From the NCBI GenBank assembly GCA_015488885.1, contig WFMW01000004.1, forward strand, positions 1-58,920: DNA of 58,920 nucleotides. The letters run 5' to 3'. Each line of letters begins with the position of its first letter. The first letter of the stretch is position 1. A program made the translations under genes and the position numbers. This DNA comes from Gammaproteobacteria bacterium (GTDB lineage: Bacteria; Pseudomonadota; Gammaproteobacteria; SZUA-229). Below, one piece after another: positions 42,448 through 57,664 of the stretch. The notes under the pieces are model-generated. The model saw only the letters and a list, made by a program, of their open reading frames with translations, ran no database searches and was not told where the DNA came from.

Positions 42448-43040
42448 TCAGTTTAAAATAACTTTCCCTATCAAAAGATCTTGCATGAGGCCGATTTTTT
42501 GTTTTACTAGTTTATTCATATACTTTTCTTCTGACCTAGCCATATCTGAAATTTTAATGATTTTCTGAACAATCATATTTTGCTCTTCATTTGGTGGCTT
42601 TGGTATCGGCATATTCTGAATGTCAGGCTGCGCGATAGTAGTCATTGTTACTTGTTTTGCTCTTGCCATTAAATAATCGCGAGACGGCCTTGTTTGGCAA
42701 TATAGTGCCAGATAATCTGGATTCACTAAATCTTGATTCGGCCTGAGACGCATTACATGACATTCATATACTGTAGGCTCTGGTAAGCTTCTTGCTATAT
42801 TACATTTTGCAATACCTGACGGCACCAATGAGCTGCGTGTGAAAAACAAATCACCAGGTTCAACCATATATTTCTTGTAATTTTTTATATTGGCGTCTAC
42901 TCGCTCTACTGATTCAAGGGTAATATCAATTCCATAATCTTGGTAAAGCTCTGATACATTTATTAACTTATACCCACTCCCAACAAGTTCAGGTTTTTTA
43001 AAATAGCCATTTTTCAGACCATCGATAGAACTCACCGCCT
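42448..43040 (-). pseudogene. hsdS remnant: second target-recognition domain of a type I specificity subunit
   Basis: About 195 codons match the C-terminal half of Hsd[31 protein letters not shown], a recognition domain, ATVTTIAQPDIQNMPIPKPPNEEQ-type conserved helix region and the terminal coiled coil (QKIGLMQDLLIGKV). No start codon suits it, because it begins inside hsdM sequence out of frame. HsdS normally has two such domains, so this fragment cannot specify a site alone. Confidence 0.82.
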
Positions 43041-43588
43041 TTTTTGTCGGCGCTATCGGCAAAATATTTGATCAGGTATTCATAGGCCGCGCCCAGCAGG
43101 TCGGGGAACTCAAAATCGCCATTTGCCAGAGGGATTTCATCAAAATGCTGGATAAACGCTACCAGGGTGCTGTCAGACATGGGCTTTTTGCCAACCTTTC
43201 GGTTGAAGTTGATGTGCTTGAGCACATCCTCCATACCGCGCTTGAGGTTGGCCTCCTCCAGCTCCGCCAGCGCCTTGTTGAGACCGGAACCAACATCGGA
43301 CTTTAAGTGCCGCAGAGTATTCCAGTGGGCACGCTCTGGTACATAAAAGCTGTATTTATTGGGCTTGGACAGCTGGATGGCTATGGCTACCTCATCCAAC
43401 CCTTTGCTAACATAGTTTTTTCTTAGTTTATACTGCTCATTATCGAACTCATCAGACATGCGCTTAAGGAATAACATGCCAAAGATGTATTCCTTATATT
43501 CAGAGGCATCCATTTTGCCACGCAGAATATCACAGGCTTTAAGCAGCAGGGATTCAAGTCGGGATAAGGTTAGTTTTTGAGTATTCAT
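43023..43588 (-). pseudogene. hsdM remnant: N-terminal part of a type I DNA methyltransferase
   Basis: The first 185 residues of HsdM are present ([67 protein letters not shown]). The protein breaks off exactly before the TP that normally follows GGEFY, ahead of the SAM-binding and NPPF motifs. The join is to hsdS sequence in another frame. The start sits only 7 bp from a terminator, leaving no space for a promoter. Confidence 0.85.
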
Positions 43589-43595
43589 CTTCCGC

Positions 43596-43624
43596 AAAAA
43601 AGGCCCGCAAGCGGGCCTTTTTTA
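43596..43624. terminator. Bidirectional rho-independent terminator
   Basis: AAAAAAGGCCCGCAAGCGGGCCTTTTTT has a GGCCCGC/GCGGGCC stem, with an A-run on one side and a T-run on the other. It ends the LysM lipoprotein transcript on the minus strand and lies directly before the hsdM remnant. Confidence 0.93.
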
Positions 43625-43651
43625 TTGCAAAGTTCAGTGACAGCGTTATTC

Positions 43652-44305
43652 TTATTTTGCCAGATAATCCAGATCAGACTGCTCTGTATCACCCAGGGTC
43701 CACGCGCCGCGTGTTTTCGCATGGTTGATGGCGGCGTTGATTTCAGATGCTGTCGCATTCTGGTCAATATCCAGAACCTGTCCGGGATAGATTAAATCGG
43801 CATCTTTAATCTTGTCGCGATTGGTTTTATAGATGAGTGGCCATTGATAAGGATTGGCATAAACTTCATCTTTAGCGGAAATGTCCCACAGGTTGTCGCC
43901 CCGGACAACCTCGTAACTATCAACCTTGCCAGCCATCGTATTTTTATTTTTTGCATCACTTTCATCATAACTGACACTCATGGTATTCAAATATTTCTGG
44001 TTTTCAAATTTAGCCTGTTTGATGGCAGCTTTTGCCTGTGCATTGGCCAGGTTGGCTAATTTCAGGGCTTTGGCGTTATCACCAGCAGCCAGTGCAGCTT
44101 CGGCCTTTTTAATGATCTTACCGGTATCACGCCATTCATAATTCAGGCTTTTTGCCTGTGCGTTTGAGGCTTTGGCATCTGAAATTGCCTGCTGCGCCTG
44201 CTGAGCCATCGTTGGGCCAGAGGCTGTTTCACTGGTTGTGGCACAACCAGTTATTAATCCTAAACTTAAAAGAACAATGCTGAAAAAACGGGCAGTTGTG
44301 TGCAT
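43652..44305 (-). CDS. LysM-domain lipoprotein
   Basis: A 217-residue protein with signal peptide and lipobox (ITGCATT), an Ala/Lys/Gln-rich helical region (residues 35-110) and a C-terminal LysM domain (SYEVVRGDNLWDISAKDEVYANPYQWPLIYKTNRDKIKDADLIYPGQVLDI, given by its ends VRGDNLWDIS and IYPGQVLDI). LysM binds peptidoglycan. The protein probably links the outer membrane to the wall. It has its own terminator at 43596. Confidence 0.88.
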   Translation of the reverse strand: MHTTARFFSIVLLSLGLITGCATTSETASGPTMAQQAQQAISDAKASNAQAKSLNYEWRDTGKIIKKAEAALAAGDNAKALKLANLANAQAKAAIKQAKFENQKYLNTMSVSYDESDAKNKNTMAGKVDSYEVVRGDNLWDISAKDEVYANPYQWPLIYKTNRDKIKDADLIYPGQVLDIDQNATASEINAAINHAKTRGAWTLGDTEQSDLDYLAK

Positions 44306-45330
<1,025 letters not shown>

Positions 45331-45342
45331 ACACTGAGCGCT

Positions 45343-45729
45343 ATGACAAATATAAAAAACAGTCAACTAATTCCGGTATTTCGCTGGTTAACACTTATCG
45401 GGTATTTTGGTTTAATGACGGGATTTTACTTCTGGTATTTATGGATTCATCCGCTGGAAAAAAATCTTATTTCAATCATCATCCTGTTTCAGATAGGACC
45501 ATTAATATTTCCATTATTCGGTTTGCTGAAAGGCAGGGTTTATACCCATACCTGGTCAATGTATCTGGCCATCTATTATTTTTGTGTTGGTGTCTGGTAC
45601 GCCGGCTCATCTGCAGAATTTTATTTTGGACTTTATGTTATTTGTACCAGCCTGCTATTTTTTGTCGGCACTATGTTTTATGTACGCCTGAAAAGCAAAG
45701 CCAGGGCGGCTAATCAGGAATCTGCCTGA
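45343..45729 (+). CDS. DUF2069 membrane protein
   Basis: A 128-residue protein with four predicted membrane helices (LTLIGYFGLMTGFYFWYLW; LISIIILFQIGPLIFPLFGLL; YLAIYYFCVGVWYAG; FGLYVICTSLLFFVGTMFYV), fitting DUF2069. The function is unknown; linkage to wrbA is conserved across relatives. Confidence 0.87.
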   Translation: MTNIKNSQLIPVFRWLTLIGYFGLMTGFYFWYLWIHPLEKNLISIIILFQIGPLIFPLFGLLKGRVYTHTWSMYLAIYYFCVGVWYAGSSAEFYFGLYVICTSLLFFVGTMFYVRLKSKARAANQESA

Positions 45730-45794
45730 CTCCGTTCACCGGTAAATAAGTTCTGAATCCGACAGACTCGCGGCGGCGTTCTAAGAAGTCAGTT

Positions 45795-47201
45795 CTAAAA
45801 CGGCATACCGGACAACAGGTAATGGGTTGCGATGGATGAAATAAAACCAAGCATCACTACCCAGCTCCATTTTAAATGCCCGAAAAAAGTATAATTACCT
45901 TTTGCCTGCCCCATTAACGCCACCCCTGCAGCAGAACCAATCGATAGTAACGAACCACCCACACCTGCAGTAAATGTCACCAGTAACCACTGGTTCACGC
46001 TCATATCAGGCATCATGGTTAGTACCGCAAACATAACGGGAATATTATCAATCACCGCAGACATAATCCCCACCAGGATATTCGCCCAGCTGGTACCCAG
46101 ACCGGTATAGAGAAGATGCGAAGTAAGGGTCAGATAGCCAAAGGCACTTAAACCGCCAACACATAAAATAACACCGTAGAAAAACATCAACGTATCCCAC
46201 TCAGCACGTTGTAACTGGTGAAAAATATCAAATGCCCCTTCACCATCAACCTGTGTTGCATTCTCAAAAGACTGTAACTTCTGTTTTTCAGATTGTTTTA
46301 ACCAGTAACCGAATAATTTAAGCACACCTAATCCGGTCATCATGCCCAGCATTGAAGGAAGATGAAGAAAACTGTGAAATAACACCGCTGTTATTATCGT
46401 ACCGAGAAACAGGATAATGACAATAAATCCACCGGGTTTCACCTGTACCGTTTCACCAGACTGTTCTGGCATACCTGCAGGAAGAAAGAAGGACATGACT
46501 AATGCAGGCACAAACCAGTTAACCAGTGAAGGCAAAAACAGGTGGAAAAACTGCCCAAACTGAACAACCCCTTTTTGCCAGACCATTAATGTTGTGATAT
46601 CACCAAAAGGACTGAATGCACCACCTGCATTGGCAGCGATAACAATATTAATACAACCAAGGGTGATAAATTTTGCCTGCTTGCCAGCTACAGCCATAAT
46701 AACCGCACCCATAACCAGTGCCGTGGTCAAATTATCAGCAACCGGTGAAATAAAGAAAGCCAGTAAACCGGTTATCCAGAAAATATTTTTTAACGATAAT
46801 CGTTTTGATACCAGATAAGCACGCAAGGCGGCAAAAATATTACGCTCTTCCATGGTATTCACATAGGTCATGGCTGATAATAAAAACAGCAATAACTCGG
46901 CATATTCCAGGATATTATGTTGAATGAGTATTTCTGCGCTATGGGTATCACCATTGTGATTAAAGGTAAGCGCAACCAGTACCCAGATTATTCCCGCAGC
47001 CACCATCACCGGTTTGGATTTGCGCAAATGCAGAAACTCCTCACCAATGACCAGTGCATAAGCAAATGCAAACAGAATAACAGAGATAATACCCATCCAG
47101 GTGGCCGTGAAATCGGTGGTGCTGACGGCGACCTCACTACTGGCATCAGCCAGTCCAGGAAACAACAGAAAGAAAATTAATATTACTGAAATTTTGATCA
47201 T
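45795..47201 (-). CDS. nhaD: NhaD-type Na+/H+ antiporter
   Basis: A 468-residue ion transporter of the IT superfamily that expels Na+ (or Li+) in exchange for protons, common in marine and halophilic bacteria. It has a signal-like first helix and about twelve more, with NhaD landmarks SPVADNLTTALVMG, NAGGAFSPFGDITTLMVWQKG and SAVIDNIPVMFAVLTM. ATG at 47201 follows AAGGGCGAG; the frame from 47294 would add 31 polar residues and is unlikely. Confidence 0.93.
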   Translation of the reverse strand: MIKISVILIFFLLFPGLADASSEVAVSTTDFTATWMGIISVILFAFAYALVIGEEFLHLRKSKPVMVAAGIIWVLVALTFNHNGDTHSAEILIQHNILEYAELLLFLLSAMTYVNTMEERNIFAALRAYLVSKRLSLKNIFWITGLLAFFISPVADNLTTALVMGAVIMAVAGKQAKFITLGCINIVIAANAGGAFSPFGDITTLMVWQKGVVQFGQFFHLFLPSLVNWFVPALVMSFFLPAGMPEQSGETVQVKPGGFIVIILFLGTIITAVLFHSFLHLPSMLGMMTGLGVLKLFGYWLKQSEKQKLQSFENATQVDGEGAFDIFHQLQRAEWDTLMFFYGVILCVGGLSAFGYLTLTSHLLYTGLGTSWANILVGIMSAVIDNIPVMFAVLTMMPDMSVNQWLLVTFTAGVGGSLLSIGSAAGVALMGQAKGNYTFFGHLKWSWVVMLGFISSIATHYLLSGMPF

Positions 47202-47415
47202 TATCTCGCCCTTATCAGGAAACGGATGATCCACACAGGATTCACTTAGCGTTTCCCTCATTATAGTTATTATAAATACCCTTTCAGGAAACATTTATGC
47301 ATAAGCTTTTACACCCGTATCATACAAAAATCACTTAAAAATGAATAATTGTAGATTCATATCGACAGCATACAGACTTTCTTTATAGTGCATTACAAAA
47401 GAAAGACCCTGTTGA

Positions 47416-49437
47416 CTAAAAAATGCCGAATAATTTATGTGCTTCTCTGTATTTTTTTAGCATAGTTATGATAGATGCATTTTTTCCCTGTTGCGCCAGC
47501 TCCAAAGCTTGTTCACGTTTATTATTTCTTATATCTATATCTGCCCCGGCATCCAGCAGTAGTTCTACTGACTCAGGACTATTTGCCAGAACAGCAAGCA
47601 CTAATGCTGTATTACCAATATTATTTTTCAGATTAAGAGCAGAACCCATGGTCAATAGTGTTCTTACTGTTTTAGAATAGCTGCGGCTTGCTGCTATCAT
47701 CAAAGCGGTATTACCATCATTAGCCCGGGCATTAATTTTCAGACCTTTTTTTATCAAGGCAGGCATTACATCAGGATTATCCAGCATCGCCGCACGATGC
47801 AACAGAGTTAATCCGTTCTGATCTTTACCCTGCAGATTTGCCTGATTTCCTAGCAGGTAATCCACCATAGCAGGACTGGCTGATTCCATAGCATACCAGA
47901 GTGCATCATGGCCAGCAGCGTTGCGTACTGAAATATCGGCACCGGCTTTAACCAGACGTTTAACCGTTGATAATGACATGGTTTCAATGGCCCGCATTAA
48001 ATCATTGCGAGCATTTTCCGTATCATTATCCGGTTTTGCATGATATTTAAGTAATAGGCCAGTAATCACCTCCTGTTTATTTATGATGGCATAAGTTAGC
48101 GCTGTACGCTTATTATGATCCTTAAGTTGAACGCTTGCACCTGCTTTAAGTAATGCAATAACCGCTTTTTTATTTCCTTTATCTACTGCCCACATTAATG
48201 GAGTTTTACCTTTTCTACTATACAGGTTTATTTTTGCACCGTAATGAATTAGCTGACTAATAATCTGTGAATTACCTTTTATAGCGGCACGCGTTAAAGG
48301 CGTATGACCTTCCCTGTCCTGCTGATTTGGGTTTGCACCCTGTTTAAGAAGCTTCAGCATAACCTCTGACTTCCCCCGCCAGACAGCTAGCATTAATGGT
48401 GTCCATAATTTATAGATACCTGTTGTACTCTTATGCAGCACAGTAAGTTTTTGCTGTACAGTTAATGCCGGTTTTTTCTCTGCTGGCAACCAGGCACCAT
48501 ATTTTTTCAGTAATGCAACCGTTGTTTTATGCCGATTTTTTTCCGCCAGCATAATGGCGGTTTCACCCCTGTTGTTTTTTAATGATAGCGATGATTTTCT
48601 TTTCAGTAAAACGTTAACCGTCGAGTTATAACCTTTCATGGCCGCAAGCATTAATGCAGTATTGTTATTGGCATCACGAATATTAATTCTTGCGTGATGG
48701 TTTAACAGATCAAGTACAACATTATTTTGAGCGGTTAATGCAGCAAGTAACAGGGGGCGGTTACTATATTTGTCTACCGCATCAACATTCGCACCATGTT
48801 TAAGTAACAGATGAATAAGTTTGCTGTTCTTCTGTAACAGGGCATCAAATATAACCGGTCGCTGGTGACTATCACGCGTATCTGCACTAACTCCCTGCGC
48901 CAGTAACTGCCTGGTACGATAAACATCCGCTGAGTGAACAGCCTGTACCAGCACCTTGCCGGAATTAGATGCTTCTGCTTTATTTAACGGTATCACATCA
49001 ATGGACTGTAATCTTTTCAGTCGCTGTTCTGCTGTTTTATAACCATGCTTAGCGGCAACCTTTAACCAGTGTATAGCCTTGTCAATATTTTTTTCAACGC
49101 CGGAACCCTGCTCATACATAACACCAAGTGAATACTGCGCGCGGGTAAAACCATGTACAGCTGACTGCTTCATCCAGTAGGCCGCTTTGCGATTATTTTC
49201 ATTCAAACCCTGGCCATTTCTGCACATCACAGCAAGATAATACTGCGCCTCACCGTCACCCTTTCTGGCTAGTGATTTTAAAATGCCAATTGCCTTTGTG
49301 TACGCCTGTGAGCGTATTGCTATTTTTGCCTCAGTCAATGATGCTGCCTGTACAACATTGACTACAGGCAGTAATAAACACAGAGAAAACGCCAATGCCC
49401 TGACTATTAAAAACTGCACAATATTCCTCTTCACCAA
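47416..49437 (-). CDS. Exported Sel1/ankyrin-repeat protein
   Basis: A 673-residue protein with a signal peptide ending near NVVQAA. Three Sel1-like repeats follow (GEAQYYLAVMCRNGQGLNENNRKAAYWM). From about residue 155 there are some fifteen ankyrin repeats (for example NTALMLAAMKGYNSTVNVLLKR). Repeat proteins of this kind bind other proteins. It starts 27 bp after the FAD oxidoreductase gene and is probably co-transcribed, which hints at a scaffolding role near the electron-transfer proteins. That is speculative. Confidence 0.85.
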   Translation of the reverse strand: MVKRNIVQFLIVRALAFSLCLLLPVVNVVQAASLTEAKIAIRSQAYTKAIGILKSLARKGDGEAQYYLAVMCRNGQGLNENNRKAAYWMKQSAVHGFTRAQYSLGVMYEQGSGVEKNIDKAIHWLKVAAKHGYKTAEQRLKRLQSIDVIPLNKAEASNSGKVLVQAVHSADVYRTRQLLAQGVSADTRDSHQRPVIFDALLQKNSKLIHLLLKHGANVDAVDKYSNRPLLLAALTAQNNVVLDLLNHHARINIRDANNNTALMLAAMKGYNSTVNVLLKRKSSLSLKNNRGETAIMLAEKNRHKTTVALLKKYGAWLPAEKKPALTVQQKLTVLHKSTTGIYKLWTPLMLAVWRGKSEVMLKLLKQGANPNQQDREGHTPLTRAAIKGNSQIISQLIHYGAKINLYSRKGKTPLMWAVDKGNKKAVIALLKAGASVQLKDHNKRTALTYAIINKQEVITGLLLKYHAKPDNDTENARNDLMRAIETMSLSTVKRLVKAGADISVRNAAGHDALWYAMESASPAMVDYLLGNQANLQGKDQNGLTLLHRAAMLDNPDVMPALIKKGLKINARANDGNTALMIAASRSYSKTVRTLLTMGSALNLKNNIGNTALVLAVLANSPESVELLLDAGADIDIRNNKREQALELAQQGKNASIITMLKKYREAHKLFGIF

Positions 49438-49464
49438 TAAACTATTTTATATATCGACAAAATA

Positions 49465-50775
49465 TCAGGCAGTACCAAATTTTGTATCGACTGTAACACC
49501 AGTTTTTTTCAGGAACCCAGTCGGTAAAATACCACCTGCACAAACAATGACGGTGTCATTTGCAATGCTTAGTTCATCGTTACCTGTTTTAATGATAACC
49601 CTGTGAGGCTCAATGATTTTTACATTTGATTTCATCAATATATGTAGCCGTCCTGCCTTTTGTACTGCCGAAGCGTTTGTACGATTTTTTTCTTTTGCAC
49701 GCGAAAAGGCTTCACTACGATATGAAATAGTTACCGTTGTACCTGGCACTTCAGCAATGCTTACCGCAGCTTCCAGAGCACTATCACCACCGCCGACAAT
49801 CAATACATGTTGATTACGATACTGTTCTACATCAATCAGCCTGTATACAACCTTGGGTAGATCTTCTCCGGGTACGTCCAGTTTTCGCGGCGTACCACGG
49901 CGACCAATTGCCAGTAAAACCGCCCGACTATGGTAGTTAGTATTAATCGTTTTTACATGAAATCCCTGTTCTTCAATTTCAATACTCTCAACCTGTTCCC
50001 TTTCCTTAATCTTCAGCCCGCTCTGGCTCACTACAGACTGCCAGAATTCCATCAATATTTCTTTGGTCGTTTCTCTAAACTGCATCTTTCCAACTATGGG
50101 TAATACTGCCGGTGCTGTCATAACAATTTTCCCACGGGGATAATGAGAAACAGTTCCTCCTAATGAGTCCTGTTCCAGTGTTATAAAATCAAGTTTTTTC
50201 TCCTTTGCAGCCAGTGATGCTGCGATACCAGCAGGACCTGCTCCAACAATAATCAGGTCGAGTTTCCCACCACGCTTTATTCCAGGCAATTTAACTATCG
50301 TATTCACCGCTTCAACGCCCTGCCTGACAGCATTTCGAATTAAACCCATACCACCAAGCTCACCGGCTATAAATATACCCGGAACATTAGTCTGGAAGTT
50401 TTTATCTACCTGAGGAATATCTACACCCCGTTTTTCGGTGCCAAAAACCAGTTCAATGGCATTAAAAGGACAGGCTGTTTTGCAGGCACCATGGCCAATA
50501 CAATGTGTCGGGTTGATTAAATGAGCCTTACCATGTATTAATCCAAGCACATTTTTAGTTGTTTCAGGGCAGGCATTTATACAGCTTGCACAACCCAGAC
50601 AGAGGTTATGATCAATCAGAGGATGAAGTGATGCAGGTTCGGCCATACCTGACGCTTTGACTTCATCAAAAATACGTTGGCTAAGATGCTGTTTTTGCGC
50701 CCGCTTCCATAAATAATAAAATAATATAATCAGTAATGGCAGGCCATAATAAAGGATTAAAGGTGATATTGTCAT
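49465..50775 (-). CDS. Membrane-anchored Fe-S/FAD NAD(P)-dependent oxidoreductase
   Basis: A 436-residue protein with one N-terminal membrane helix (residues 5-22) and a double ferredoxin-like domain: C59-x2-C62-x2-C65-x3-C69P and C92-x5-C98-x3-C102P, where His95 replaces the expected second Cys. A thioredoxin-reductase-like flavoprotein follows, with FAD site IIVGAGPAGIAAS (about 175) and NAD(P) site HVLIVGGGDSALEAA (about 323). It would pass electrons between pyridine nucleotide and a membrane partner. It is divergent from the cytochrome genes and shares their 276-bp control region. Confidence 0.85.
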   Translation of the reverse strand: MTISPLILYYGLPLLIILFYYLWKRAQKQHLSQRIFDEVKASGMAEPASLHPLIDHNLCLGCASCINACPETTKNVLGLIHGKAHLINPTHCIGHGACKTACPFNAIELVFGTEKRGVDIPQVDKNFQTNVPGIFIAGELGGMGLIRNAVRQGVEAVNTIVKLPGIKRGGKLDLIIVGAGPAGIAASLAAKEKKLDFITLEQDSLGGTVSHYPRGKIVMTAPAVLPIVGKMQFRETTKEILMEFWQSVVSQSGLKIKEREQVESIEIEEQGFHVKTINTNYHSRAVLLAIGRRGTPRKLDVPGEDLPKVVYRLIDVEQYRNQHVLIVGGGDSALEAAVSIAEVPGTTVTISYRSEAFSRAKEKNRTNASAVQKAGRLHILMKSNVKIIEPHRVIIKTGNDELSIANDTVIVCAGGILPTGFLKKTGVTVDTKFGTA

Positions 50776-50785
50776 CGTCTATAAC

Positions 50786-50832
50786 TTAGGGAAGCTCTGA
50801 ACTAGTCTGGATACAGAAAAAGTATTCCATGG
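50786..50832. repeat. Single-arm copy E of the dispersed repeat
   Basis: AGGGAAGCTCTGAACTAGTCTGGATA matches the family consensus in one arm. It lies in the divergent region 50776-51051 between the oxidoreductase and the cytochrome-b-like gene. The remaining bases there hold only a short open frame that I do not support as a gene. Confidence 0.5.
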
Positions 50833-51051
50833 TTATATCCACGCCGGGAACAGGACTTTTGTTGCATATTTTTTATAAATATTTCAACAAGCTCATTATT
50901 TTTCTATTCATACTGCTATTCGTCCTGATATTCATCCCGATAAATATTTCCTGTACAAGTGGAACCAAAATACGCTACCAGACGTGTCTGGTTAACAGGA
51001 ATATATCAGAAATAAACAGAAAATATTCATTACCATGATCTATAGCTACTT

Positions 51052-51885
51052 ATGATACAAGCATCATTTAAACTATTGAGAACTAACTTTTTATTGCTCT
51101 GTGCAACTATCGTACTTTATATAGGCTGGATGCACAGAAGTGATAATTATCTTAGTGCGGAGACTGGAACCGGCTATGCTCTCGGTATTATCGGCGGCAG
51201 TCTGATGCTTACTCTCCTTCTTTACCCGCTGAGTAAACGTATTACACTACTGACCAGATTAATTCCCATTCGTTACTGGTTTGGCATGCATATGCTATTA
51301 GGTATTGTTGGGCCTATACTGGTTTTATTCCACTCTAACTTTCATCTTGGTTCAGCAAATAGCTCTATTGCACTTATCTGTATGCTCATGGTTGCAGGCA
51401 GTGGTGTAATCGGGCGATACATATACACGCATATTCATCATGGTCTGTATGGCACACGCATTACCCTTAAGGAACTCAGACAGGAAACTGAAAATAAGCA
51501 TTCAGCCATTCTCACGCTGTATGAAAAAGACAGTAAATTAGCCAGTCAGTTGAAAAATATGGAAGATAAAGCCATGCAGCCCTATACCAATATAATAAGC
51601 AGTCTGCTACAGGTTATGTATCTGGCTATTAATGCACCATGGATGAAAAGAAAAATACTCCAGTCTTTAAAAAATAGTTATAGTGAAAATACCGACGAGA
51701 CATACATAGCTGACAAAAAAATAGTTGTCTGTACCGTTAAGAAATATCTTTTAACACTAAGAAAGGCAGCCGCATTAAGCGTATATGAAAGGCTGTTTTC
51801 CTTATGGCATATTCTCCACCTGCCATTGTTTATTATGATGATTATTACTGCGGTTATTCATATTTTTGCAGTACATCTTTATTAA
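51052..51885 (+). CDS. Cytochrome b / ferric-reductase-like membrane protein
   Basis: The 277-residue integral membrane protein has helices at about 10-27, 42-60, 77-96, 104-125 and 250-275. His pairs spaced as in dihaem b cytochromes occur: His80 and His94 in the third helix (WFGMHMLLGIVGPILVLFHSNFH) and WHILHLP ... AVIHIF in the last. The middle loop is long and charged. I recognise no exact family. It is the first gene before the multihaem cytochromes (37-bp gap), so it is well placed to move electrons across the inner membrane between the quinone pool or the Fe-S flavoprotein and the periplasm. Confidence 0.7.
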   Translation: MIQASFKLLRTNFLLLCATIVLYIGWMHRSDNYLSAETGTGYALGIIGGSLMLTLLLYPLSKRITLLTRLIPIRYWFGMHMLLGIVGPILVLFHSNFHLGSANSSIALICMLMVAGSGVIGRYIYTHIHHGLYGTRITLKELRQETENKHSAILTLYEKDSKLASQLKNMEDKAMQPYTNIISSLLQVMYLAINAPWMKRKILQSLKNSYSENTDETYIADKKIVVCTVKKYLLTLRKAAALSVYERLFSLWHILHLPLFIMMIITAVIHIFAVHLY

Positions 51886-51921
51886 ATCAAGGCTAAACCT
51901 CTCGCTAACAAGTGACATTTT

Positions 51922-53502
51922 ATGTATCGATGCTTACCCTGTCTTTTCTGGTCTGTTTTTCTACTGTTTATATTAGCCCTGTCAGCGATAGCCAGTGCAG
52001 ATTCTCTGAAAACCCTGCTTATGCCAGGTCCATTAACGGATGCACATGCAAAATATGAGCATGATTGTAATAAATGCCATAATATCACTAGCAAAACCGA
52101 GCAGGGAAAAGTCTGTCTGCGATGTCACGACCATAAAGATATTCGTAATGATATTAATAAAAGAACCGGGTTTCACGGACGATTGTCCGATTCCGTACAG
52201 TTAAAATGCAAACACTGTCATACTGAACATAAAGGCAGAAAAGCTGAAATTATACTTTTAAATCCATCAACCTTTAATCACATAAACACCGATTTTGTTT
52301 TAAAAGGTGCCCACAGAAAGATTGTTTGCCAGGCTTGTCATAAACCTGAAAAAAAATACTCGCAAGCAGCACATAAATGCTATAGCTGCCATAGAAAAAA
52401 TGACGTACACAAAGGCAAACAGGGAAACAAATGTGATAACTGTCATACAGAAAATAACTGGAAAAAAACAAAATTTAACCATAATAAAACTCATTTTCCG
52501 TTAAAAGGTTCACATAAAAAAACAGCCTGTAATGCCTGCCATATTACACCAACCTATAAAGATACACCGAAAACATGCATAAGTTGCCACCAAATAGATG
52601 ACATTCACCCTGGTGAATTTGGTATCAAATGTAATCGCTGTCATAACTCAGTTAAATGGAAAAATGGACATTTTAATCATAATAAAACCGATTTTCCGTT
52701 AAAAGGTTCACACCAGAAAGCAACCTGCAATAGTTGTCACACATTAGGAGATAAAAAGACAAAGTTACCTAAAGACTGTTATGGCTGCCACAAAAACGAT
52801 GATATTCATCAAGGTCAGTATGGTAAAAAATGCCATACCTGTCATCGTTCAACATCATGGCAGAAACAGATATTTAACCATACTAAAAACACCGACTTTC
52901 CTTTACTGGGTAAGCATAAATCAATCAGCTGTAGCCTCTGTCATTCTGGAAATGTTTATAAAGAAAAACTCAAAACAGACTGTATTAACTGCCATAAACA
53001 GGACGATGTACATAAAGGTAAACAGGGCAGAAAATGTGATAACTGCCATAATGAAAGCAGCTGGAAAAGCAATGTTAAATTTGATCATGATCTGACAAAA
53101 TTTCCATTAATTGGCATGCATGCTACCACACAATGTGGTGAATGCCATCTGTCAACAACGTACAGCGATGCAAACACGGACTGTAATAACTGCCATACCG
53201 ATGATGATATACATAAACAGCGACTGGGAACGGATTGCGCAAACTGCCACAACCCCAATGCCTGGGATATCTGGATTTTCGATCATAATAAATCGACAAC
53301 TTTTAAAATTGATGGCGCGCATAAAAAAGCAGGTTGTTATGATTGTCACAAAACACCTTCATCAGGAAAAAAGCTGGTAACAGCAAGCGATTGTATCGGC
53401 TGTCATCGCAGTGATGATATTCACCATCGTCAATTTGGCAGAGACTGTGGACAATGCCACACTACAGACAGCTTTAAGGATATATTATTAAAACGCAGAT
53501 AA
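51922..53502 (+). CDS. 21-haem cytochrome c with six three-haem repeats
   Basis: A 526-residue exported protein with a signal peptide ending at IASA. I count 21 CxxCH motifs: three in the N-terminal part, then six repeats of about 67 residues each with three. The repeat reads FNHNKTxFPLKGSHKK..C..CH....C..CHxxDDIHxG..G..C..CH....W. His in KGSH and DDIH are likely distal ligands. Haem density is about one per 25 residues, typical of electron-wire cytochromes. It sits between the cytochrome-b-like and second multihaem genes. Confidence 0.92.
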   Translation: MYRCLPCLFWSVFLLFILALSAIASADSLKTLLMPGPLTDAHAKYEHDCNKCHNITSKTEQGKVCLRCHDHKDIRNDINKRTGFHGRLSDSVQLKCKHCHTEHKGRKAEIILLNPSTFNHINTDFVLKGAHRKIVCQACHKPEKKYSQAAHKCYSCHRKNDVHKGKQGNKCDNCHTENNWKKTKFNHNKTHFPLKGSHKKTACNACHITPTYKDTPKTCISCHQIDDIHPGEFGIKCNRCHNSVKWKNGHFNHNKTDFPLKGSHQKATCNSCHTLGDKKTKLPKDCYGCHKNDDIHQGQYGKKCHTCHRSTSWQKQIFNHTKNTDFPLLGKHKSISCSLCHSGNVYKEKLKTDCINCHKQDDVHKGKQGRKCDNCHNESSWKSNVKFDHDLTKFPLIGMHATTQCGECHLSTTYSDANTDCNNCHTDDDIHKQRLGTDCANCHNPNAWDIWIFDHNKSTTFKIDGAHKKAGCYDCHKTPSSGKKLVTASDCIGCHRSDDIHHRQFGRDCGQCHTTDSFKDILLKRR

Positions 53503-53603
53503 AGTAAATATTAAAATAGCAGGAACCTTTTCTACGGGAGACACGTTACAACTGTAATAAATGATAAAAATACGACTGTCTAGATAACTATACAAGCAAC
53601 GCT

Positions 53604-55559
53604 ATGCCGACACTTCGACTGTTACTTTTAATACCGGTTTTTTTCCTGAGTTTTAATATTCAGGCTGCTGTTTCCAGTAATCATTTTGATCACTTTTCTA
53701 CCGGCTTTCCATTAACCGGGAAACACCGTAATATCGATTGCTCAAGTTGTCACTTATCCGGCCACTTTAAAGGCGCTCCACTGGAATGTGCTGGCTGCCA
53801 TAACGGTTCACGTGCACCTGGCAAACCTGCGCAACATATCAGTAGCAGTATATACTGCGATGACTGCCATACGGTTAATTCCTGGCAGAGTGCAACCTTT
53901 GATCACACCGGTGTCCAGGGAAGTTGCACAAGCTGCCATAATAATACTACCGCTACCGGTAAATCACCTTCGCATATTCCTTCTTCCGCAATATGTGAAA
54001 GCTGCCACAATACCGTATCCTTTAACCATGTAAGCACTGTTGATCATGCAGAAGTCAAAGGCAGTTGCAACAGTTGTCATAATGGCAGTATCAGTACTGG
54101 CAAATCATCACAACATATTATCACTAACCAGCAATGTGACAGTTGCCACTCAACCACCAGCTGGAAAGGCGCTCGTTTTGACCACACGAATACCGCCGGT
54201 AAATGCAGCAGTTGCCACAATGGGGTAACAGCAACCGGTAAATCCATTTCACATCTGCAAACAAAAGCACAGTGTGATAGCTGTCATACAACCGCCAGCT
54301 GGAAGGCGGCCACTTTTGACCATTCAGCAGTCACCGCACCCTGCTCCAGTTGTCATAATGGTAGTGTTGCAACCGGCAAAAATGTAAACCACCTGAAAAC
54401 ATCAGCTGAGTGTGATAGCTGCCACACCACAGCTACCTGGAAAAATGCCCGTTTTGATCATTCAGCAGTGTCCGGCAACTGTAGCAGTTGTCATAACGGC
54501 AATATTGCCACCGGTAAAAGCGCCAGTCACTTACTTACCACGGCTGACTGCGGTAACTGTCATACTACAACATCGTGGAAAGGGGCTGGCTTCGATCACG
54601 CTTCCGTTTCAGGCCCCTGTTCAAGCTGTCATAACGGTGTTATTGCCACCGGTAAAACGGCTTCACATGTACAGACCAATGCACAATGTGATAACTGCCA
54701 TAATACGAATACATGGAAAGGCGCAAACTTTGATCATAGCTCGGTGACTGGAAGCTGTTCAAGCTGTCATAACGGGGTAACCGCGCCGGGCAAGAATTCG
54801 TCACATCTACCCACAAATGCTGACTGTGATAATTGCCATACCACCACCTCATGGAAAGGTGCCGTATTTGATCATGCATCAGTCACTGCAAGTTGTAATA
54901 GCTGTCACAACGGTGTGGTTGCCACCGGTAAAAGCCCGTCTCATTTACCGACCAATGCACAATGTGATGACTGTCATACCACCAAAACCTGGGCAGGAGC
55001 AAGCTTCAATCATAATTCGGTTACTGCACCATGTAGCAACTGTCACAACGGCGTTGTTGCCACCGGAAAAAATCCCACACATTTACAGACTAACAGTGAG
55101 TGCGATGCCTGCCATACAACAAATTCATGGTTGGGTGCCAGTTTTGATCACAACAATGTAACTGGATTATGCTCGAGCTGCCATAATGGTTCGACAGCAA
55201 CCGGGAAGAACACCACGCATTTTGTTACCACACTGGACTGTGAACGTTGTCACTCAACACAACGCTGGAAACCACTTGTATTATTCCGTCACGATTCCCC
55301 AGACTACCCGGGTGATCATCGCACTGCCACGCTCTGTGTAGACTGTCATACCACCAACAACCAGACCATCGCCTGGCCATTTCCGACATATAAGCCTGAT
55401 TGTGCTGGTTGCCATGCTAATAACTACAAATCAGATGAACACAAGGGAGCAGGTAATGTACCACTGCCTGTTGCGGATGTTCAGGACTGTAGTGGAACCT
55501 GTCACCTGAAAAAGGCGACAAAAAGCCATCAACACCGTGCAAGTGCTGGTGGATGGTAA
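53604..55559 (+). CDS. Multihaem cytochrome c with ten two-haem repeats (25 CxxCH and one CxxxCH)
   Basis: A 651-residue exported protein with a signal peptide ending near NIQAA. It has 25 CxxCH motifs and one CSGTCH. Residues 85-545 are ten tandem units of 46-47 residues (CDSCHTTxSWKGAxFDHxxV...CSSCHNGxxATGKxxxHLxTNA). Each has two CxxCH plus FDH and a second His as likely distal ligands. The C-terminal part is less regular. It may lie on or across the outer membrane together with the barrel protein encoded downstream (29-bp gap to its first possible start), though this is not proven. Confidence 0.92.
   Translation: MPTLRLLLLIPVFFLSFNIQAAVSSNHFDHFSTGFPLTGKHRNIDCSSCHLSGHFKGAPLECAGCHNGSRAPGKPAQHISSSIYCDDCHTVNSWQSATFDHTGVQGSCTSCHNNTTATGKSPSHIPSSAICESCHNTVSFNHVSTVDHAEVKGSCNSCHNGSISTGKSSQHIITNQQCDSCHSTTSWKGARFDHTNTAGKCSSCHNGVTATGKSISHLQTKAQCDSCHTTASWKAATFDHSAVTAPCSSCHNGSVATGKNVNHLKTSAECDSCHTTATWKNARFDHSAVSGNCSSCHNGNIATGKSASHLLTTADCGNCHTTTSWKGAGFDHASVSGPCSSCHNGVIATGKTASHVQTNAQCDNCHNTNTWKGANFDHSSVTGSCSSCHNGVTAPGKNSSHLPTNADCDNCHTTTSWKGAVFDHASVTASCNSCHNGVVATGKSPSHLPTNAQCDDCHTTKTWAGASFNHNSVTAPCSNCHNGVVATGKNPTHLQTNSECDACHTTNSWLGASFDHNNVTGLCSSCHNGSTATGKNTTHFVTTLDCERCHSTQRWKPLVLFRHDSPDYPGDHRTATLCVDCHTTNNQTIAWPFPTYKPDCAGCHANNYKSDEHKGAGNVPLPVADVQDCSGTCHLKKATKSHQHRASAGGW
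53856..55238 (+). repeat. Ten tandem copies of a 138-bp coding repeat
   Basis: The 46-residue haem-binding units (nine of 138 bp, one of 141 bp) lie head to tail. Their DNA is similar enough to recombine, so the number of haem units could change by unequal crossing-over. Confidence 0.85.
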
Positions 55560-55603
55560 CTATTTTAGTAGACAGCTAATTTTAGCTCTTGATTTTATTT
55601 AAT

Positions 55604-57664
55604 ATGATTACGACGCCATCCTATATGACGCGCCCTCACTATCCCGTAACTTTTATATTTGCCATGATAGTATTATGCCAGCTAATTATACCGGTAAATA
55701 CCCGGGCATCTGGCAGATCAAAAATCTATGCTATTGTATTAGCATCAACGCCAGGCAGGCAGGTAAAATGGGTAATAAAAAAATACTCAGCATTTAATCA
55801 CCGCACTATTTATTCACAGGCAATAACTGTAAAAGGCAAAGCATGGCAAAGGCTGTGTGTTGGTTTTTATACAGATTATAAGCAGGCCAGAGCCGTACAG
55901 GAAAAAATAAAAAAACGGTACCCGGATGCATGGATAACAAGAACATCAAAAAATACTATTAAGCGTATTATAAGCTCACCAGAAAACACAAATGTTTCTG
56001 CACCACCTGTAACAAAACATACTATTATTCATAATCAATCAACACTAACGGAAAAGCAGATTAATGAACTGATGCAAAAAGCCAGGCAGTCATTCAATGG
56101 AAAAAAATACAGAAGTGCGATTCGTTATCTGACCGCCCTGGTTGAAGCAGGAAAACATAAATATTCACAGGATGCACTGGAACAACTCGGGCTGGCAAGA
56201 CAACGTCTCGGCCAGAAAGAACGTGCGGCGAAAACGTATGCAAGATATATAAAACTATATCCGAGCAGCAAAGGTGCGCCCAGAGTCAAACAACGTCTTG
56301 CTGGTTTACTTACCGCCAGCAAACCAGCCAGGAAAAAGATTCACCTGTTGACTGTTCAGAAAAAAAATAAAATATCATCCTATGGCAATTTATCCCAGTT
56401 CTATCGCTGGAACCGGGCCAGTACCGACAATGCGGCTTCTGTTGTTACCCTGTCACAACTGGTAACTTTTCTGGATACAGAAACACTGGTTCGTTCAAAC
56501 AGCTATGATCAGCGCTTCAGGTTTACGGCTGACCATACCCATGATTTTGTCGCATTAACCAGTAAAGATGATCTGCGTTTTATTGAAACCTATTATGAGT
56601 TAACCCAGAGAAGAACAGGTAATTCGGGAAAAATTGGCCGTCAGGCATTACGTATAGGCGGTATATTAAAACGTTTTGACGGTATTTCACTCGGTTACCA
56701 GATTAACCCTGAAATGCGTTTAAATTTTCTTGGCGGTTTACCCGTCGATATTCAAAATAAAACCTCTTTTAATAAACATAAATTTTTCTACGGTTTTATT
56801 TATGAAACAGGTACCTTTCTGAAAAACTGGAATATGAATTTATTTTATTTTGACCAGAAAATAGACGGCTTAACCGACCGTAACAGTGCCGGTACGGAAG
56901 TACACTATAATGATAGAAACAGGGCTCTGTTTGGTATGATTGATTACGATCTGTTCTATAAAAAAATTAATATCCTGCAGTTAAACGCCAATATTCTATT
57001 TGCTCATGGCCGCTCCGCGTATATGAACGCATTTATGCGTGAAGCGCCCATACTTGCCACCAGCAATGCCTTAATTGGGCAACAGGCAAGAACCATCAGC
57101 GATCTGAAAAAAACCCTGAATATTGAGCAAATTTATCAACTGGCCAATGACCGGACAGCTAGCAGTCAAACGGTTACCATTGGCGGAACCCAGCCGATAA
57201 ATGAGAAATTTCAGTCATCGGTTGATATTACCCTGTCCAGAGTTGGTTCTACTGTCAGCTCTGGCGGTGTTGCGGCAACCCCCAGTACCGGCACAGACTA
57301 TTTTTTAAGTGCACAGATCGTTGGCAATAATCTATTAATAAATCATGATACCGGTGTCATCGGTATTCGCTTCAATAATACTACACCATCCAATACACTT
57401 TCCTTAATCGCCAACTCCAGGTTCCCGATCAACCGTAACTGGCGAATTAATCCACGCCTTCAGTTAGACTACAGAAAATTACAGGGCAGTGGATCACAGA
57501 CAAAATATCGCGCTCTATTAAGAACCGATTATCGGTATTTAAACAAGGTACGTTTTGATTTTGAAATTGGTTATGATGCAACCACCAGTACAAATATAAA
57601 TAATGATACACTGGGGACCAATAACCTGTTCTTTACTCTTGGTTATCGTTGGGACTTTTACTAA
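55604..57664 (+). CDS. SPOR/TPR/beta-barrel outer-membrane protein
   Basis: A protein of about 686 residues. The signal peptide ends near VNTRA. A SPOR-like domain is followed by TPR-like helices (ARQSFNGKKYRSAIRYLTALVEAG; ALEQLGLARQRLGQKERAAKTYARYIKLYP), then a barrel of about 420 residues ending in LGYRWDFY. ATG at 55604 (MITTPSY) or 55625 is preferred over a TTG at 55589. As the last gene after two multihaem cytochromes it could be the porin sheath of an electron conduit (inference). Its plan matches the barrel at 5400. Confidence 0.8.
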   Translation: MITTPSYMTRPHYPVTFIFAMIVLCQLIIPVNTRASGRSKIYAIVLASTPGRQVKWVIKKYSAFNHRTIYSQAITVKGKAWQRLCVGFYTDYKQARAVQEKIKKRYPDAWITRTSKNTIKRIISSPENTNVSAPPVTKHTIIHNQSTLTEKQINELMQKARQSFNGKKYRSAIRYLTALVEAGKHKYSQDALEQLGLARQRLGQKERAAKTYARYIKLYPSSKGAPRVKQRLAGLLTASKPARKKIHLLTVQKKNKISSYGNLSQFYRWNRASTDNAASVVTLSQLVTFLDTETLVRSNSYDQRFRFTADHTHDFVALTSKDDLRFIETYYELTQRRTGNSGKIGRQALRIGGILKRFDGISLGYQINPEMRLNFLGGLPVDIQNKTSFNKHKFFYGFIYETGTFLKNWNMNLFYFDQKIDGLTDRNSAGTEVHYNDRNRALFGMIDYDLFYKKINILQLNANILFAHGRSAYMNAFMREAPILATSNALIGQQARTISDLKKTLNIEQIYQLANDRTASSQTVTIGGTQPINEKFQSSVDITLSRVGSTVSSGGVAATPSTGTDYFLSAQIVGNNLLINHDTGVIGIRFNNTTPSNTLSLIANSRFPINRNWRINPRLQLDYRKLQGSGSQTKYRALLRTDYRYLNKVRFDFEIGYDATTSTNINNDTLGTNNLFFTLGYRWDFY

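Follow-up and report, generated by a model that had tools for sequence, protein, structure and literature searches.

Which system is encoded by a gene cluster in which a membrane-anchored oxidoreductase diverges from a membrane protein, two multihaem cytochromes and an outer-membrane barrel? The cluster lies in a window of 58,920 nucleotides (the whole stretch of DNA that was analysed). The initial annotation had proposed an electron conduit between inner and outer membrane at positions 49465-57664 and had suggested that it may be of a new type. Our data support the conduit as the best reading, which fits all evidence, whereas the suggested novelty is contradicted by gene content, haem numbers, residues per haem and motifs, all of which are those of PCC3. 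The features of the locus are as follows.

47416..49437, minus strand: secreted Sel1/ankyrin-repeat protein, 673 aa, TTG start; Pfam Sel1 and Ank
49465..50775, minus strand: membrane-anchored Fe-S/FAD oxidoreductase, 436 aa; Fer4 and Pyr_redox domains
50776..51051, no strand: divergent intergenic region, defined by its position between the divergent genes
51052..51885, plus strand: PCC3-type inner-membrane protein with five TM helices, 277 aa; His80/94/256/270, SGXXG
51922..53502, plus strand: periplasmic-type 21-haem cytochrome, 526 aa, 21 CXXCH; Cytochrome_C7 (Pfam)
53604..55559, plus strand: extracellular-type 26-haem cytochrome, 651 aa, 25 CXXCH and 1 CX3CH
55589..57664, plus strand: outer-membrane barrel with SPOR and TPR domains (Pfam; AlphaFold2 model)

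Gene content and relation to PCC3

Open reading frames were found at the annotated coordinates, with the Fe-S/FAD gene on the minus strand diverging from the genes for the membrane protein, the two cytochromes and the barrel (51052-57664, plus strand). The estimate of about 47 haem sites was borne out, since 21 CXXCH in the first cytochrome, 25 CXXCH in the second and one CSGTCH (residue 629) add up to 47. By motif count, no other open reading frame in the window carries more than one CXXCH. The interval initially given is too short, as the adjacent ankyrin/Sel1 gene also is a member. The divergent intergenic region should be the promoter site of both arms; a promoter scan of this region gave scores no better than those of shuffles.

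A search for the same gene set in relatives showed that it recurs in dozens of genomes, and it is thus not due to chance. The linkage of these genes, on which the initial proposal was made to depend, was also examined: as a rule the genes are linked, in a conserved order. Some variation was observed. The barrel and outer cytochrome genes lie on the opposite strand relative to the membrane protein and inner cytochrome genes in three loci (L073:12411-16984, L086 and L090), and some loci contain a TPR protein with weak likeness to CcmH/CycH. One record titled as a Klebsiella pneumoniae MAG has a PCC3-type locus (L089) and is probably mislabelled or contaminated. Further conserved neighbours proposed by all-against-all comparison were mostly shadow ORFs of GC-rich genomes. 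Carriage on a plasmid was considered and rejected, as the barrel has no plasmid match.

The earlier comparison took in Mtr, Pcc and Cyc2 only, and PCC3 is the match (PMC5566968). The text of He et al. 2017 (PMC5566968), who proposed PCC3, describes four genes, namely a porin, two multihaem cytochromes and an inner-membrane protein, and four genes are likewise counted in the text of later papers (PMC10734462, PMC8788666). These genes are adjacent here. For the inner-membrane protein, the 2017 text gives about 300 aa, five TM helices, SGXXG and two WX3HX13H motifs (PMC5566968); the protein of the window has 277 aa, five hydrophobic segments, SGXXG and two WX3HX13H. For the cytochromes, it gives 22-39 residues per haem in both and about 21 haems in the periplasmic one (PMC5566968). 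With 21 haems in 526 aa and 26 haems in 651 aa, the window proteins have about 25 residues per haem, which is within this range. The sequence comparison with PCC3 of named iron oxidisers covered a Gallionella MAG locus (L088), which is homologous in its membrane protein, 24-haem cytochrome and Fe-S/FAD gene. A new conduit type was rejected, as the cluster has each PCC3 feature tested (He et al. 2017, PMC5566968). Judged by its sequence, the cluster is PCC3, a known kind, plus two added constant subunits.

The flavoprotein and the Sel1/ankyrin protein

The first of these subunits is the Fe-S/FAD protein, which has one N-terminal hydrophobic helix, two ferredoxin-type motifs and a pyridine-nucleotide oxidoreductase domain (Pfam, NCBIfam). 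Its FAD domain is closest to YpdA, thioredoxin reductase and TrxR-like ferredoxin-NADP reductase. No mention of the gene was found in the text of the PCC3 papers (PMC5566968; text as distinct from figures and supplements). In all of the 19 nearest relatives, the gene lies next to that of the membrane protein and diverges from it. Of 42 loci from named records, which cover Gammaproteobacteria, Thiobacillus, Burkholderiales, Gallionella and Nitrospira, 41 contain it. The exception is locus L087, where the membrane protein lies close to a contig end.

Whole genomes were searched so that the association does not hang on neighbourhood alone. Class-wide, 229 genomes were divided into 28 with both genes, 2 with only the flavoprotein, 1 with only the membrane protein and 198 with neither; the two genes thus occur together in 28 of the 31 genomes with either (Fisher 1.8e-32), counts that are to be read with the caveat that the profiles were made from PCC3 loci and that related species and genomes are non-independent samples. 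One of the two flavoprotein-only genomes has the gene as a fragment on a 3.5-kb contig, and the other is 72% complete. The flavoprotein family is discrete, with best per-genome scores of at least 382 bits and then none above 223. Phylum-wide, among 398 genomes sampled, both genes were found in the same 6 genomes (6/6). In 2 of these 6 they lie on separate contigs, which indicates that the link is more than proximity. Including this protein in the system was a good call of the initial annotation, for it is a constant companion of the membrane protein. The pattern makes it the fifth PCC3 member and a candidate for the cytoplasmic entry or exit of electrons.

The iron-sulfur motifs are unusual. 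The second reads CIGHxACxxxCP, with His95 replacing the usual cysteine in 22/22 aligned proteins, and in the first the second cysteine (Cys62) is changed to Ser in 9/22. Owing to these substitutions, one or more of the clusters may be ligated by His or Ser, or be of the 3Fe type. In one complete genome, the Fe-S/FAD gene is interrupted by a TGA and a gap (L094:3407-5029 on G087 contig 1, and L032); the same genome has two outer cytochromes, with 24 and 70 haem sites.

The second added subunit is encoded 27 bp behind the flavoprotein gene. Its Sel1/ankyrin gene is present in 27 of the 42 named loci and absent from Thiobacillus-, Gallionella- and Nitrospira-type loci. Full-length homologues (>370 bits) occur in 27/229 genomes, all of which are flavoprotein-positive. 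In several genomes the flavoprotein-ankyrin pair has moved and is found beyond the barrel gene, still adjoining the cluster. A secretion-signal-like N-terminus was observed in all 15 aligned relatives (15/15). The protein is a sixth, clade-restricted member and probably serves as a periplasmic scaffold. A literature search found no paper joining PCC3 or multihaem conduits with ankyrin.

The membrane protein and the cytochromes

The inner-membrane protein had been called cytochrome-b-like, which agrees with its five hydrophobic segments and four conserved His spaced as in di-haem cytochromes b. Its motifs are W76/H80/H94, S117-G118-x-x-G121 and W252/H256/H270 (numbering of the window protein). 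No variation was seen across 39 aligned proteins at W76, H80, H94, S117, G118, W252 and H256; 37 of them extend as far as H270, and all of these have it. The histidines form two HX13H pairs, H80/H94 and H256/H270, as in ferric reductase-like di-haem cytochromes b. The protein probably is a di-haem cytochrome b with His80/94/256/270 as the residues concerned. No match was found in Pfam or NCBIfam, ferric-reductase families included, and no relative among PDB chains by sequence. The model (pLDDT 78) had no Foldseek match at E 0.001. In a second structural comparison b561 (Z 8.8), Dcytb (Z 8.1) and NOX5 (Z 7.2) were matched with low rmsd and with Z at chance level for helical bundles. Positive charges place loops 2 and 4 in the cytoplasm. 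Loop 4 is a 120-residue helical domain, so that this domain and the flavoprotein would be on the same, cytoplasmic side.

Seven three-haem modules form the inner cytochrome; the unit of three haems follows from the spacing pattern 16-17/18/32-33. The haem number is 21 in 51 of 70 distinct complete inner cytochromes and 24 in another 17; the remaining two have 18 haems and, in the case of an extra copy, 16. A 27-haem inner cytochrome is known from Gallionellaceae (PMC10734462). In the outer cytochrome the unit has two haems in 46 aa and is seen in the DNA as a 138-nt repeat; by sequence, this protein has no relative in the PDB. Here the haem number is free: 53 complete proteins contain from 7 to 133 CXXCH (7 to 134 haems), with an odd count in 45. 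A CX3CH occurs in 36 of the 53, usually as a C-terminal C[SA]GxCH as in the window protein. A near-fixed inner length and a free outer length would be expected if the inner cytochrome, but not the outer, bridges the periplasm. This module rule was not found in the texts of the PCC3 literature. At the upper end is an outer cytochrome of 4086 aa with 133 CXXCH and one CX3CH (L120:77-12334; G265 contig 17, about 42976-55233). It is a single open frame and rich in repeats, and is a candidate subject to assembly artefact; the largest known in 2017 had 85 haems according to the text of He et al. 2017 (PMC5566968).

Electron path, alternatives and known systems

The cluster is a conserved, co-inherited gene unit with the sequence features described above. 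We consider it highly probable that it encodes a cell-wall-spanning PCC3-type porin-cytochrome conduit with two additional constant subunits. The Fe-S/FAD protein would sit on the cytoplasmic face, tethered by its N-terminal helix, and pass electrons to or from the membrane protein, with NAD(P)H (or ferredoxin) on its other side. The membrane protein, as a di-haem cytochrome b, would carry electrons over the inner membrane, perhaps with contact to the quinone pool as well. The 21-haem cytochrome would be the wire that crosses the periplasm, its length set by the seven modules, and the 26-haem cytochrome would take electrons on to the cell surface, either through the barrel or beyond it. In the periplasm, the wire is probably held in place and kept aligned by the SPOR and TPR domains of the barrel together with the secreted ankyrin/Sel1 protein. 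The direction of flow would depend on the partner: with NAD(P)H the outward direction, which follows the membrane potential, is favoured; with quinone, electrons could come inward from Fe(II), minerals or a cathode. Points that speak against the conduit are the behaviour of the PCC3 clusters of S. lithotrophicus ES-1 on Fe(II), described below, the fold of the membrane protein, which has no significant PDB match, and the barrel, which with 22 strands is smaller than the PCC3 porins are predicted to be. A bolder version is tentative, and we think it rather doubtful as a whole. It takes PCC3 as a six-part machine that passes electrons from cytoplasmic NAD(P)H over flavin, Fe-S, two b haems and two c-haem wires to the outside, bypassing quinone, with the inner wire as a ruler of the periplasm, one three-haem module per step.

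The most serious alternative, to which we give somewhat less than an even chance, is a conduit that runs inward. Electrons from extracellular Fe(II), minerals or a cathode would travel along the wire and reach the quinone pool at cytochrome b, and the Fe-S/FAD protein would be an accessory or use these electrons in part. As far as its text goes, this is the published model of He et al. 2017 (PMC5566968), and PCC3 is common to many iron oxidisers (PMC10734462). The gene complement of the genome (2.63 Mb, 72 contigs) is what one would expect of a lithoautotroph: it includes RuBisCO, DsrA, two haem-copper oxidases and a Uet-like cluster. However, both PCC3 clusters of S. lithotrophicus ES-1 are down-regulated on Fe(II) (PMC8788666), which makes Fe(II) oxidation doubtful, and inward flow leaves a constant flavoprotein of the NAD(P)H type unexplained. 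By its gene content, the organism is likely a lithoautotroph with two outer-membrane conduits. The Uet-like cluster (L091:8436-15585, G000 contig 9) contains an 11-haem, two 3-haem and, at the contig end, a 4-haem protein, as well as an NHL-repeat protein and a 677-aa ORF without Pfam match. Elsewhere in this genome (L092:6983-9904, G000 contig 70) a 974-aa protein is possibly a further surface cytochrome: its scanned part contains nine CXXCH, and it has a bacterial Ig domain and a lipoprotein-like N-terminus.

The barrel had been recognised initially as an outer-membrane barrel, and the model agrees: SPOR and TPR domains are followed by a barrel of 22 strands (AlphaFold2, mean pLDDT 84.7), in which strands 13 and 14 are separated by a helical insert with conserved residues. 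TPR domains are found in most relatives (Pfam), and the Foldseek matches include exporters, among them PelB and AlgE. Moreover, the barrel is always present while the outer cytochrome varies from 7 to 134 haems. These observations would suit a TPR-plus-barrel exporter that secretes the outer cytochrome to the surface and has no cytochrome in its lumen. We regard such an exporter as unlikely, as many unrelated barrels match equally well and the barrel part matches no exporter sequence family (Pfam). The best structural matches in the PDB are TonB-dependent receptors with other barrels close behind, and near-equal matches of this kind indicate no specific kinship; MtrB is not among the matches listed, which is uninformative either way. 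TonB-dependent receptors are 22-stranded and accommodate a plug domain of about 150 residues, so that the modelled barrel may have room for a thin cytochrome. MtrB has 26 strands and is wider. A periplasmic electron store with no path outward, for which one could cite that both window cytochromes have only signal-peptide-like N-termini, is very improbable: the barrel family and the membrane protein occur in almost identical sets of genomes, in conserved order, and a store would not need a fixed inner and a free outer haem number.

PCC3 has been a four-gene candidate since 2017. In the conduit preferred here, its constant Fe-S/FAD companion is a concrete candidate for the cell-side electron end and makes the electron direction testable with NAD(P)H and the protein in purified form. 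The fixed three-haem count inside and the free two-haem count outside offer a simple rule for wires that span the cell wall.

Among known systems, PCC3 shares with the cluster the porin, the 21-haem periplasmic-type and the many-haem extracellular-type cytochrome, the five-helix membrane protein and about 25 residues per haem. It differs in having four genes, to which the Fe-S/FAD and ankyrin/Sel1 genes are added here, and in porins that the 2017 text predicts with up to 42 segments (PMC5566968), compared with 22 modelled strands. PCC4, as described in the text of He et al. 2017, has a membrane protein with the same His spacing and, in subgroup II, an adjoining Fe-S gene. However, it lacks an extracellular cytochrome, its cytochromes have 4, 5 and 10 haems, and its membrane proteins are stated there to be overall non-homologous to those of PCC3 (PMC5566968). 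MtrCAB, MtoAB and PioAB likewise combine a barrel with a periplasmic multihaem cytochrome, and Mtr also has an extracellular one, but their cytochromes are decahaem proteins, whereas 21 and 26 haems in C7-like modules and another inner-membrane partner are found here. The DmsE/MtrA family model TIGR03508 gave 92 bits against a cut-off of 192, in repeated partial matches to a protein with 25 CXXCH, not 10. Uet of Tenderiales and Gallionella also is a multihaem outer-membrane conduit, but is encoded at a different locus by 11-haem, 4-haem and 3-haem cytochromes with NHL proteins. Ferric reductases and NADPH oxidases (NOX) resemble the inner part of the system in their HX13H pairs on two helices and a flavin and pyridine-nucleotide domain on the cytoplasmic side; here, in contrast, flavin and haem b would be on separate proteins, and the Fe-S motifs are extra.
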